Shown here: positions 5,723 to 50,647 of the stretch, one piece after another
How positions within the stretch are numbered: the stretch's first letter is position 1
How the letters are laid out: every line of letters begins with the position of its first letter
Source: Coniochaeta sp. PMI_546
Taxonomy: Eukaryota > Ascomycota > Sordariomycetes > Coniochaetales > Coniochaetaceae
DNA length: 64,000 nt
Reading direction: 5' to 3'
Assembly: GCA_021432605.1 (NCBI GenBank)
Contig: MU271149.1
Location: 1,798,001 to 1,862,000, forward strand
Translations under genes and position numbers: made by a program
Notes under the pieces: generated by a model
The model's database searches: none
The model's input: only the letters and a program-made list of their open reading frames with translations
Told to the model about the DNA's origin: nothing

Positions 5723-6408
5723 AGCCTTCTTCGGATACTATACGTAGGATAAGCACTTCTAAAGTTGGGCTGCCATACGGCTACATAAACAAACTCATTC
5801 TGAAGAATCCGCATAAAGAAAACCTTCCTGGATGATATGTTCTCAAGGCTCATCGTAAAGTCTTGGTTTCGTCCACGGGAATGACCACATATGCTACTTG
5901 CTTCATCAGAGCAATACTATGATCAACTCCAAATGAGTTTTTTGAGTGTAAAGACTGTTGTTTGTACGGCAGGATGTTTCTCCTGTCGACGAGCCGCCTT
6001 TGACCAAGTATGCAGGTTCGGATGGGACGCTAATCAAGAAGCGACTGTACGAACACAGCAAGCATTAGGTAGAGGCGCGAATGAAGACCGCAGTCGTAGA
6101 TTCTTCAACTATGATGCCATTCAACTATTGCTACATTGTCGATCAGGGCTCATCTGAGGCCTTCGCATCTTATTCGAGAGTGCAACTGCAAGCACACCTG
6201 TGACAAAATTCCATCCATCTCATATAAGCTGTGATTAGGATGGAAATTAGTGTAGTCAAGTTATATAGATCACCTACATGCTACAATGTCAGTCAAATTA
6301 AAGACTCTTAGAGTATATCGATGCAGACTATTGCCAGATGTTCTATTGGACGCCCTCTTTCCCTTCTGCGTACACGATACACATCCTCATTACATGGGTG
6401 TCCTTGAA
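5723..6408. other. Convergent spacer
   Basis: This lies between the stop codons of the plus-strand regulator and the minus-strand dehydrogenase. It is moderately AT-rich, as expected for two 3' untranslated regions. An 88-codon frame (5891-6157) has no recognisable content, and I do not call a gene. Confidence 0.5.
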
Positions 6409-46135: not shown

Positions 46136-46332
46136 TCCTCCAAGGCTTCATCAGCTTGACTCCTCCAAGGCTTCATCAGCTTGACTCCTCCAAGGCTTCA
46201 TCAGCTTGACTCNNNNNNNNNNNNNNNNNNNNTCCTCCAAGGCTTCATCAGCTTGACTCCTCCAAGGCTTCATCAGCTTGACTCCTCCAAGGCTTCATCA
46301 GCTTGACTCGCCCAAGGCCTGCTCAGTCTCAC
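46136..46332 (+). repeat. 25-bp tandem minisatellite interrupted by an assembly gap
   Basis: Exact 25-bp units at 46136-46160, 46161-46185 and 46186-46210, then two bases and 20 Ns, then three more exact units (46233-46257, 46258-46282, 46283-46307) and a diverged seventh (46308-46332). The core is CCAAGGCTTCATCAGCTTG. The true copy number is unknown because the gap sits inside the array. Confidence 0.9.
46213..46232. other. Assembly gap (20 Ns)
   Basis: Unresolved bases inside the 25-bp tandem repeat; probably a collapsed or unspanned repeat of unknown true length. Confidence 0.98.
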
Positions 46333-46853: not shown

Positions 46854-49559
46854 ATGTCTAGTCCTCCAGGAGGCGGCGACCAGCAGCCGGGCGGCGGCCC
46901 TGCTTCTAGTGGTAGTCGTTCATTCACTCCGCAGACCACTCGTTACGCCGACTTCCAAGCTGCGCATCGAGCCATCACAGGCCAAGATAGCAGTGAGATT
47001 GCAGAACATGAATTCCTGCCCGATCCGAGTGTCTTTGAGGATGACGGCCTCGGAGACAGCTCATTGGACACGACTGCAGTCCATGAAGGGCAGCTACCAG
47101 ACCCTGAGTGGTTTGATCAGGCCTTCATGGACGACGACGCCGACGACGTGCCTCCATCCGGGGAGGAGATCCCTGTGTCCGCTGGTAAGACCGGTGATGA
47201 TGCACATCCTCCAGCCCAGGATTCTTCGGACGTGCCTCGTGACGACAGCCATGACACCGTTGGTCGCATCTATGAGCAATACGTCCAGCCTGAGACAAAT
47301 GAGACGACCTCATCCAGTGGTTTCAACCCCAATCTTGCAGCAGCAACGACAATCTCCAGCCATCGCTCAGCAAGCATTTACCGCGCGGCCCCGGAGCAGA
47401 CCCGCCGTGAGGGTGCTACTGGCCGTCTTGGCTTCCACGACCAACAAGGCTCTTCTTCTGGCTCCGACACCCTGTATGATGGGTACAGTGTTAAAGAGAT
47501 GGCGGCGCGTGTTCGAGCATTGACCGACAGCAGTGGACCTTCACTTCCTCTCCCAAATGATCCACCTGCGCACCCCGGACATGTTGACAACGTCCCCTTT
47601 GGTGATCCATCTGTGTCATCGGTGACGAACAGTCAGGCTCTGTTGCAAGGAACCTTGTCCTCGCCTCCTGCACGGACTTATCAGCCTGGTCACCGTGCAG
47701 CTCGATCTGACTTTCCCTCAAACCCACCGCCTGTGCCGAGACGCAGCTCTTATCGCAATGCAACAAGCGGCAATGACCGCAATATCGATTCGCGTTTTCC
47801 GACCTTGTTTGAAGAGCCTACTGGAACTCGCCGACCCCTGTTCGAGGACCCTCTGGAGCCAGGAAACACAAGTGCTCTTCCCTCTCATCAAGTTGATGAG
47901 GACGACGACTGGGGTGGCCCAGGCCCTGCCGTTGTGCACGGTGTTGTCGTTCAAGAGCATTCTCCGCTCCGCTTGAACCCTCCCCAACCGGATCCGACTA
48001 TCCCTTCTCAGCAAGTCGCTACAACGACCAGTCACGATGCAAGTGGCGCTCAAGAGTCTTCGGGCTCTTCAGGCAGAGATCCCTTCCACTATGAGAAGTT
48101 GTTTCTTGCCCCAGAGCAAGAGCGCAACAATACCTCGCGCCTCCGAACAATGACTGGGAAATCGACTGTGTTCTCGAAAAGCCCCCTCAACAGTCCAGAA
48201 CGCCCAGATGAATTCACAGATGTCCAACTCGATGATACGAGAGAGGCACAGGCTGGGCCTTCTAGGGCTAGACCACGTGGTGTGTATGAGGGAGACCAGA
48301 GGCAGTTCCTCAGGATGGCGCGCCAAGAAGACCAGTCAATGAATTTGAGGCGCTGTCAATGCCGGTTCCCTGGCTATGAATGTCGGTGGTGTGTGGAGGA
48401 AGACCGCATCGCGGATGAGCGAGCTCGACAGAGAGACAACGGGCCGTACGCAGCATCACCGTCATACCGAATGGATCGTCATGGGATTCAAGTTGCAGAT
48501 GATTATGGCCACCAGTCTGCATTTTACATTGGAGGTTCACCAAGAGGCTATTCTTCCACTGAACGTATCATGGCTCATCCCGCTGAGCACGCCGTGACTA
48601 GCCCGTCCTCACGACCTGCACGAGTCCTGGAGAGAAGCGACTTTCCTACTTTCCAAGCAATTCAGCGCACCCATCGCGTCAATGGGCGAGACGAGACTGC
48701 GCTTCACACCCCGAGTTCTTCTCTGGCTCCCACCCGCCGACCCATTATTCGACCTGATCGCGCGGGGACAAGATTGCTTGGGCTCTCAGGGAGCAACACA
48801 TCTCGCTACGAATTCCGAGATTCACTTCAGGACGCACCCGGCCGACCAGCAGAGGCCACAAATGTCCAGAACGCGCGTCGTAGTGAGAACTGGCGCTCCT
48901 TGACCCATCCACAAGACCTCACCACATCGTCGGTAGTTGCCACAACGGATCAGAGAGCAACAAACGAGGACATACGAGGGCAAGAGACACCATATGTGAT
49001 CGACCCGAACTCGCCGACGCAGTTCCCATTCTCGCTCCTCCCCCTCGACGAAGCTCGCCGGCGTCAGGCTGAAGACCGTGCACGCGGCATAGTCGACCAG
49101 ACCTTCATCACGACGTCTAGCCGACAAGTCTCCCTCGCAACGTCTTCCACCCAAACCGTTGCCGCGGGTGGCTACCTCTCCACCTTTCTCTCCCAGGCGC
49201 GTCTCCCCCGCCTGCCTGGTCGCCGCCGCGCCGTCACCAGAACGACCGGCCAGAACGACTCCTTCTCCTCCGTCATGCGCGCCGCCCTCAACGACGACAT
49301 GGGGCAGGAGCAGGTGCCCCGTGCCTTCCTGCCGGGCAACACCACCACCACCGCCGCCGCCGCCGCCTCCACCTCCACCACCCGCCCCGCCTTCCGCGAC
49401 CCTCCCCCTCGCACCTTCCCCGCCGCCGCCCTCGCCTCCTCCTCCCGCCGCTACGGCAACATCAACGACGACGACATCGAGATGTTGCCCTACGGGGCAG
49501 GCGCCGCCGCCGCCACCACCACCAACGGCAGCGTCCTGGGCCGCCGCTGGTCCTCCTAG
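46854..49559 (+). CDS. Large disordered protein with a possible read-through membrane tail
   Basis: Single open frame of 901 codons; ATG at 46854 in good context. I do not recognise a family. The protein is Ser/Pro/Gly/Asp/Gln-rich and largely disordered. Internal landmarks are a Cys cluster RRCQCRFPGYECRWCVEED (CxCx6CxxC, about residue 502) and a C-terminal part rich in Ala/Thr runs before YGNINDDDIEMLPYG. The frame ends at TAG (49557-49559) but runs on for 80 further codons (49560-49799) with the same codon bias and a hydrophobic helix, so the annotated end may not be the only product. A long, probably spliced leader precedes it. Regulatory or membrane-tethered roles are speculation. Confidence 0.7.
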   Translation: MSSPPGGGDQQPGGGPASSGSRSFTPQTTRYADFQAAHRAITGQDSSEIAEHEFLPDPSVFEDDGLGDSSLDTTAVHEGQLPDPEWFDQAFMDDDADDVPPSGEEIPVSAGKTGDDAHPPAQDSSDVPRDDSHDTVGRIYEQYVQPETNETTSSSGFNPNLAAATTISSHRSASIYRAAPEQTRREGATGRLGFHDQQGSSSGSDTLYDGYSVKEMAARVRALTDSSGPSLPLPNDPPAHPGHVDNVPFGDPSVSSVTNSQALLQGTLSSPPARTYQPGHRAARSDFPSNPPPVPRRSSYRNATSGNDRNIDSRFPTLFEEPTGTRRPLFEDPLEPGNTSALPSHQVDEDDDWGGPGPAVVHGVVVQEHSPLRLNPPQPDPTIPSQQVATTTSHDASGAQESSGSSGRDPFHYEKLFLAPEQERNNTSRLRTMTGKSTVFSKSPLNSPERPDEFTDVQLDDTREAQAGPSRARPRGVYEGDQRQFLRMARQEDQSMNLRRCQCRFPGYECRWCVEEDRIADERARQRDNGPYAASPSYRMDRHGIQVADDYGHQSAFYIGGSPRGYSSTERIMAHPAEHAVTSPSSRPARVLERSDFPTFQAIQRTHRVNGRDETALHTPSSSLAPTRRPIIRPDRAGTRLLGLSGSNTSRYEFRDSLQDAPGRPAEATNVQNARRSENWRSLTHPQDLTTSSVVATTDQRATNEDIRGQETPYVIDPNSPTQFPFSLLPLDEARRRQAEDRARGIVDQTFITTSSRQVSLATSSTQTVAAGGYLSTFLSQARLPRLPGRRRAVTRTTGQNDSFSSVMRAALNDDMGQEQVPRAFLPGNTTTTAAAAASTSTTRPAFRDPPPRTFPAAALASSSRRYGNINDDDIEMLPYGAGAAAATTTNGSVLGRRWSS

Positions 49560-49802
49560 GACGAGGATCAGCGGGCCACGCTGGCCTACCGCGTCATGAT
49601 GGCGCTCTCTCTCATGTGCCCGCCCCTGGCCCTCGTGGTGCGGCTGTCGACCTTCCGCCGCGCCTTCCCGGCGCTCGAGACCTTGCGCCGTCACAAGATC
49701 TACCTGGCGGCCTCCGTGGTCGGTTTCTTTTGGGTGCTGGCCCTCGTCATCTTGGTGGTGGTGGTTGCGGTCCCCGGGCCGCGTGGTGGTGGTGGCGCTT
49801 AG
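49560..49802 (+). other. In-frame 80-codon extension after TAG, with transmembrane segment
   Basis: Continues the 901-codon frame without a shift to the next stop (TAG 49800-49802). None of its 80 codons ends in A, although about 18 As occur in the other two positions. It encodes YRVMMALSLMCPPLALVVRL and a helix IYLAASVVGFFWVLALVILV. Possible explanations are stop-codon read-through, an undetected intron spanning the TAG, or a nonsense change in this strain. Confidence 0.5.
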
Positions 49803-50647
49803 GCGCTCCACGAGGAAGGAGTGGGTTTTTGCGTTGTTTTTTTTTTTTTTTGCTTTTTTTTTTCTTTTTGCTTTTTTTTATTTTGATTTTTCTCCTTTCC
49901 TTTTCTTTCTTTCCTATCCTTTCCTAACTGTCTTGTTCTTCATCTGCCGGAGTTGGGGGGAGGGGGGGAGAGGGGGAGTTTGAAGTTGGAGTTGGAGTTT
50001 AGGGAAGGAACCATCGGCGGCCGGCGTGCCTGCCTCTTGTTTTCGGTGCGTTGTGTTCTTTTGCAATAGAGACCCTGCCTTCATGGCCCTCGGCTTCGGC
50101 CTTGTTTTTTTCGGAAAGGGAGAGAGGGGACGGTGGCGTTGGAGTACTGGCTGGCTGGTTCGTTGAAGTTTTTAAAGAGTCTGACCATCATGCCCTCGCG
50201 GGCGGACGAACGTTGCTTTGCCTTCGGGCTTTTTGCTTGATATCATGACTTGACACTCTCGCTCGTGATATGTGACAGGTTTTCGTTGCGTGAAGAGGTG
50301 ATCGTGAATGATGGAAGCTTGACTTATGATGTGACGAGGTTGGTATGATGGCATCTCTCATTGATATCGCCCCAAGGATATGTGTAGAAGCATGAGGAGG
50401 CATTATCGCAAATCAGTGCAGAACGTAGACTTTCGTGATGATGTAAAACCACAAGTATTACTTTTATATCACGAAACTCCTCAAGAAGATATCTATAACT
50501 GACTGACATGTCGCTACTCCAGCAGTTCAACTGTTTGAGCCTTGGAACCTGAATACCAACTTCATCTCCCTCGCAACTCCTTGGTGAGAATGGAGTGAGA
50601 GTGCCATTCCGAGATCCCTTGAATATCCTTCACCGTACTTTCACCAC
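49803..50647. other. Convergent spacer with a long T-rich tract
   Basis: A T-rich tract with runs of 9-15 Ts (about 49838-49890) lies just past the extension, followed by pyrimidine- then G-rich sequence near 49950-49975. No gene recognised. Confidence 0.5.

Follow-up and report, generated by a model that had tools for sequence, protein, structure and literature searches.

We propose that the in-frame TAG at positions 49557-49559 of a 64,000-nucleotide stretch of Coniochaeta sp. PMI_546 contig MU271149.1 (the window) is a premature stop codon that is corrected in the messenger RNA. The codon ends an open reading frame (ORF) of 901 codons, and the same frame continues behind it as an 80-codon tail that encodes a candidate membrane anchor (Table 1). 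The adenosine at 49558 (A49558) is likely to undergo adenosine-to-inosine (A-to-I) editing by Tad2-Tad3-Ame1, by which UAG would be read as UGG. The sequence-based support consists of the coding-type tail, a hairpin around the stop and a mostly preferred nucleotide context, together with two features found outside this gene, an Ame1 signature and an in-frame stop of the PUK1 type. The genome surveyed comprises 33.5 Mb on 24 contigs; the surveys of ORFs, TAGs, UA sites and stops used a sample of 264 kb, made up of the window and 20 stretches of 10 kb.

The coding-type composition of the tail had been pointed out in a preliminary description of this DNA, and all counts given there are exact: the frame stays open for 80 codons, none of which ends in A and 69 of which end in G or C, while 18 As occur at the first and second codon positions. 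The chance that 18 independent As would all avoid the third position is about 0.0007. G/C is found at 58, 38 and 69 of the 80 first, second and third positions, respectively, a contrast that did not recur in 20,000 shuffles of the bases. With a codon model derived from the long ORFs of this genome except the gene under study, the tail scores +0.105 in frame, compared with -0.22 and -0.15 in the other forward frames and +0.04, +0.08 and -0.23 on the reverse strand. Two hydrophobic stretches, one of them strong, had also been described and were found again, with best 19-residue hydropathy means of 3.24 (tail residues 53-71) and 1.79 (residues 12-30); elsewhere the maxima are 0.16 and 0.20 in the other two forward frames and 0.68 in the 901-codon ORF. 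In an AlphaFold2 model of the last 161 residues, calculated from the single sequence, helices are placed at residues 73-76, 83-116 and 124-151 of this piece, with the TAG at 81; the confidence of the model is low (mean predicted local distance difference test 56.6, predicted template modelling score 0.30) and it was not used as proof. The openness of the tail alone is unremarkable, because at least 80 open codons follow the stop in 10 of the 66 long ORFs of the sample, the present ORF counted. Third-position G/C reaches 96% in the final 100 codons of the ORF versus 45-55% in the first 700. The G/C-rich block starts ahead of the TAG and stops at the second TAG, and therefore the first TAG lies inside one coding-type block; the sequence 3' of the second TAG is T-rich and does not have the periodicity of the tail. 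The tail was judged as coding by composition and hydropathy, not by a homologue. Composition, codon score, hydropathy and the low-confidence model support the earlier view of the tail as protein-coding and of two alternative products, of which only the longer has a membrane segment.

The hairpin around the stop resembles an anticodon arm. The anticodon loop has 7 bases, with A34 at loop position 3 (tRNA numbering). In the transcript, A49558 would hold the same place in a loop of the same size, on the stem CCGCUGGUCCUC/GAGGAUCAGCGG, for which 12 pairs including one G-U are possible and 11 appear in the minimum-energy fold. The fold window was ±30 nucleotides (nt), as in work on Fusarium graminearum (PMC9600606). 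A49558 lies within the 7-base loop in all three folds of 61, 101 and 141 nt, with energies of -34.9, -46.0 and -68.5 kcal/mol (z -2.75, -2.12 and -1.67, respectively); 3, 8 and 12 of 200 shuffles folded equally well. Among 20,892 UA sites on both strands of the sample, A49558 alone combines the third place in a 7-base loop with a stem of at least 10 base pairs (bp); the next three sites with this loop have stems of 9 bp. As a comparison set we used the 671 TAGs of the sample that are preceded by at least 60 open codons. The TAG at 49557-49559 ranks first in fold energy, and only there does the loop stem exceed 8 bp; in 3 of the 671, the present one counted, the A is the third base of a 7-base loop, and the 210 TAGs that sit in some loop include no other with an energy as low. 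When the codons were replaced by random local codons, none of 20,000 variants formed a stem of at least 12 bp and 11 formed one of at least 9 bp.

In F. graminearum, the target A is reported to lie in a hairpin loop at about 62% of sites, with preferred neighbours U at -1, C or U at -2, A or G at +1, G at +2, A or G at +3 and A or G at +4 (PMC9600606). The neighbours of A49558 agree with five of these six preferences (C at -2, U at -1, G at +1, G at +2 and A at +3). Taken alone this agreement is weak, as five preferences are found at 115 and six at 21 of the 671 TAGs, and any TAG implies U at -1 and G at +1.

Genome-wide A-to-I mRNA editing in fungi has been described for Sordariomycetes and one Pezizomycete during sexual reproduction, with a preference for hairpin loops and for U at -1 (PMC11156358). 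UAG-to-UGG correction is reported for PUK1 and about 70 other F. graminearum genes (PMC11156358; PMC4817773). Editing needs Ame1, a DUF726 protein in which Met-Val at residues 500-501 replaced Lys-Asn in Sordariomycetes (PMC11087585). Three DUF726 genes were found in the present genome: one with Met-Val (C11:79431-80548), one with Lys-Asn in the same column (C7:1744175) and a third with Leu-Asp, the columns being aligned by eye against the Lys-Asn paralogue. In the Met-Val copy the Ser-to-Asp spacing is 58, equal to that of S531-D589 (PMC11087585). Judged by these columns, the genome carries a DUF726 protein with the Met-Val signature expected of an editing-competent Ame1. The Nup192 protein of this genome is much nearer to Chaetomium thermophilum chains (best 1587 bits) than to a yeast chain (156 bits); a search for 5.8S rRNA found none.

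A PUK1-type stop is also a candidate in this genome. TAGs lie inside 12 of 140 kinase matches, and seven of these 12 regions were read. In a CBK1-like kinase (L046:683-685; G000:C2:1760964-1760966) a TAG stands directly before TGG in subdomain IX and the kinase frame is otherwise unbroken, giving YDARCD-TAG-WSIGVILYE. The piece ahead of the TAG has its best match in CBK1 (E-value 6e-33) with an alignment that ends at CBK1 residue 345, and the 31-residue piece behind it has weak matches to several kinases, that to CBK1 (E-value 0.007) starting at residue 347; therefore the TAG stands for exactly one residue. We take CBK1 residue 346 to be Trp. The edited stops of PUK1 are reported to lie in the ninth kinase subdomain, the Neurospora crassa form being UAGUGG (PMC4817773). 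The kinase gene is probably a PUK1/stk-21 orthologue with a conserved edited stop, an assignment based on the site and the UAGUGG form and not on a tree. The TAGs of the six other kinase regions were rejected as edited stops, since by eye each is an intron end, and a GH7 gene with an internal TAG (L027) was read as containing an intron.

The sample holds 370 in-frame stops (177 TGA, 125 TAG and 68 TAA) with 60 open codons on either side. Nine of them (4 TGA, 3 TAG and 2 TAA) are coding-like on both sides, as scored by a codon model whose training here included these ORFs, and the three top scores all belong to TAGs: first the one at 49557-49559, then one each in L009 and L013. With a TAG share of 34%, three TAGs on top would arise by chance about 4% of the time. 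The TAG in L013 (reverse strand, at forward-strand positions 2962-2964) follows 1531 open codons of a DUF1765 gene and is followed by 137 coding-like codons; in-frame GT-AG candidates are present, with poor donors, and the site is a possible further candidate, whether for stop correction or for stop-loss editing. The TAG in L009 (reverse strand, at forward-strand positions 6011-6013) has a coding-like, coiled-coil-like frame on either side and may belong to a mobile or transposon-like element with a C-to-T mutation.

Several observations weigh against editing of the present stop. The codon model is weak: within the ORF itself the in-frame score is close to zero or negative for several 80-codon windows, and the last quarter of the tail scores +0.006 in frame versus +0.18 on the reverse strand. 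The base at +4 is C, which is depleted at this position. When the amino acids were kept and synonymous codons were drawn by local usage, 2,981 of 20,000 variants still formed a stem of at least 12 bp and 14,082 one of at least 9 bp; therefore the hairpin is explained for the most part by the amino acids near the stop and the GC-rich codons that encode them. It marks an editable place and gives no sign of selection on silent sites. In the candidate Ame1, the spacing from Met-Val to Ser is 30 versus the 31 implied by the published numbers (PMC11087585), and none of nine PF00383 matches in the genome was assigned to Tad2 or Tad3. The A of the kinase stop lies in a 4-base loop when ±30 nt are folded and outside hairpin loops at ±40 and ±50 nt. 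Four DNA_methylase matches, among which RID should be found, contain no stop within their matched parts, unlike what is reported of F. graminearum RID. The L013 TAG has all six preferred neighbours but its A lies in a small bulge.

The preliminary description had offered ribosomal readthrough, an intron or a nonsense change as causes. The first and the last are possible, none of the three fits best, and the intron is implausible. A recent nonsense change or a sequencing error in this strain, with a tail that was lately lost or is mis-read, would account for a tail of coding type that continues the same compositional block. TGG and CAG are each one transition away from TAG, and the amino acids yield the hairpin regardless of any selected stop. 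A random site would nevertheless have had to hit the most stable fold among the 671 TAGs, and in a genome that also holds an Ame1-type Met-Val protein and a PUK1-type stop. We regard this explanation as improbable. Programmed readthrough of the UAG would explain a coding-type tail beyond a single stop and would give a small share of the long form, with the hairpin perhaps slowing termination. It is silent on why the A should be the third of seven loop bases, we know of no leaky context of the form UAG-G (here UAG-GAC), and known stimulating stems sit downstream of the stop, not around it; we consider readthrough very unlikely. Both explanations are less apt than A-to-I editing because neither of them predicts an anticodon-like hairpin at the stop, which editing does.

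An intron that takes out the TAG, with the TAG itself as 3' splice site, deserves equally little credence. The sequence TCCTCCTAG resembles an acceptor, six of the seven internal kinase TAGs read here are, by eye, acceptors of this kind, and in-frame donors exist for a GC-AG intron of 63 nt (49497-49559, donor GCAGGC) and at 49314 (GTGCCC, 246 nt), the latter having been misplaced earlier at 49313 with a length of 247 nt. With GT donors and acceptors from the TAG to about 90 nt past it, no in-frame intron of 45-150 nt can be formed, and the donors of the nine in-frame ones with lengths up to 400 nt are poor (GTCACC, GTCATG, GTGCCC). Of 186 in-frame GT/GC-AG candidates, the 30 listed, whose acceptors are all at 49559, 49565 or 49571, show no branch-site match. 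The removable stretch (up to 400 nt) is itself coding-like, with 80-100% third-position G/C and positive codon scores, and automated annotation is reported to invent small introns at edited stops (PMC4817773; PMC11169179).

Editing of A49558 by virus-responsive OLD deaminases (OLD-ZAO module) instead of Tad2-Tad3-Ame1 is hardly credible: a search of the genome for the OTT_1508 deaminase family gave five matches, but OLD edits mainly its cognate zinc-finger gene, the present gene has no Pfam zinc finger, and none of the five matches is on contig C7. These OTT_1508-like (OLD type) matches are at C15:25749, C8:621937, C5:818128, C3:15298 and C12:7407 of G000; on C15, C3 and C12 the distance to the first base of the contig is at most about 26 kb.

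For editing by Tad2-Tad3-Ame1, we infer the following course, in which the editing at A49558, its stage, the disorder of the protein and its membrane location are predicted. The gene would be transcribed in sexual tissue and the transcript would fold into a 12-bp stem with a 7-base loop in which the A of the stop is third, mimicking an anticodon arm. Tad2-Tad3, with Ame1 as cofactor, would then deaminate A49558 to inosine, UIG would be read as UGG (Trp) and translation would extend through the 80 codons. The product of the unedited mRNA would have 901 residues and be soluble and disordered, and that of the edited mRNA would have 982 residues and a C-terminal two-helix membrane anchor. We tentatively suggest that both forms are functional and constitute a developmental localisation switch, the protein being soluble in vegetative cells and tethered to a membrane in sexual tissue; this is a possibility to which we give less than even weight. 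The mimicry of the anticodon arm is unusually clear, and the substrate rule of Tad2-Tad3-Ame1 could be tested on it directly. Premature-stop correction by A-to-I editing is known from a few ascomycetes, chiefly through RNA sequencing, and is here predicted from DNA alone. The present gene, the PUK1-type kinase and possibly a third gene are easily mis-annotated as truncated or as containing a false intron.

The coordinates of the features are collected in Table 1. No Pfam family was found in the ORF (E-value up to 1) or in the tail; the composition of the ORF product suggests a disordered protein, and more exons may lie 5' of the ATG at 46854. Searches for relatives of the ORF or the tail gave none that was convincing within the own genome (a single chance match, E-value 0.417) and none in viral_contigs or genome_contigs (viral, bacterial and archaeal sequence collections). 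Third-position G/C climbs from about 0.5 to 0.95 across the last ~180 codons of the ORF, for which biased conversion or a fused segment might be considered. An antisense open frame of 351 codons (48822-49877, reverse strand) spans the 3' end; it is probably not a gene and arises because third-position A is almost absent from the forward strand. A tandem repeat with a 25-nt unit, CCTCCAAGGCTTCATCAGCTTGACT, lies at about 46138-46311 and contains a run of 20 N (46213-46232), which is either a gap or withheld sequence.

Table 1 Features of the candidate edited gene and of the hairpin around its first stop (positions in the window)
Feature	Position	Strand	Description
Upstream ORF, 901 codons (ATG to the codon preceding TAG)	46854..49556	+	Rich in Ser, Arg, Pro, Ala, Thr and Asp; no hydrophobic segment or Pfam family
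In-frame TAG	49557..49559	+	Proposed premature stop; predicted A-to-I editing of A49558 would give UGG (Trp)
80-codon tail	49560..49799	+	Hydrophobic stretch (residues 12-30), then a basic linker and a strong transmembrane-type segment at about residues 47-71
Second TAG, end of the long form	49800..49802	+	Product of 982 residues, with the first TAG counted as one residue
Block of high third-position G/C	49257..49799	+	0.75-1.0 per 20-codon piece; spans the TAG and stops at the second TAG
5' arm of the 12-bp stem, CCGCUGGUCCUC	49544..49555	+	With ±30 nt folded, 11 of the 12 pairs form at minimum energy
7-base loop CUAGGAC	49556..49562	+	A of the stop at loop position 3
3' arm of the stem, GAGGAUCAGCGG	49563..49574	+	Pairs with CCGCUGGUCCUC

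In fungal peroxisomal enzymes, translational readthrough yields C-terminally extended forms. As in these, one gene would here give a short and a C-terminally extended protein; the stop context differs, and the extension would carry a membrane segment where the peroxisomal enzymes gain a peroxisomal signal. In the editing of A34 in tRNAs, too, the A stands at position 3 of a 7-base loop, but on a 5-bp anticodon stem, where the present gene has a 12-bp stem in an mRNA. In A34 editing by Tad2-Tad3 (ADAT2/3), the target is also in a hairpin loop and preceded by U (PMC11169179; PMC11156358).

The premature-stop-correction (PSC) genes of F. graminearum and N. crassa (PUK1/NCU03242, AMD1, FgRID, FgAMA1, FgBUD14 and CHE1) resemble the present gene in having an in-frame UAG with coding sequence beyond it, in the preference for hairpin loops and in stops that mislead gene models (PMC11169179; PMC11156358; PMC4817773). 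Unlike in these genes, the part restored here would be a short membrane segment on a protein without known domain, and the editing is predicted. AMD1 is an edited MFS gene and codes for a membrane protein, but represents a different case. An editing-dependent membrane anchor of this kind was not found in the titles and abstract beginnings of the papers listed by searches on readthrough, stop editing, PSC, stop-loss with transmembrane segments, and Ame1; an orthologue may be contained in published PSC tables. The closest case with protein evidence is the stop-loss event in white collar 1 of Sordaria macrospora, where UAG-to-UGG editing at the end of a long ORF likewise adds a C-terminal part, an extension of 131 amino acids for which peptide evidence is reported (PMC6794485). 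White collar 1 gains a predicted histone-deacetylase-like stretch (PMC6794485), whereas the present gene would gain a transmembrane hairpin. If true, the switching of a membrane anchor by way of a stop codon would extend the reach of fungal editing to the location of proteins.

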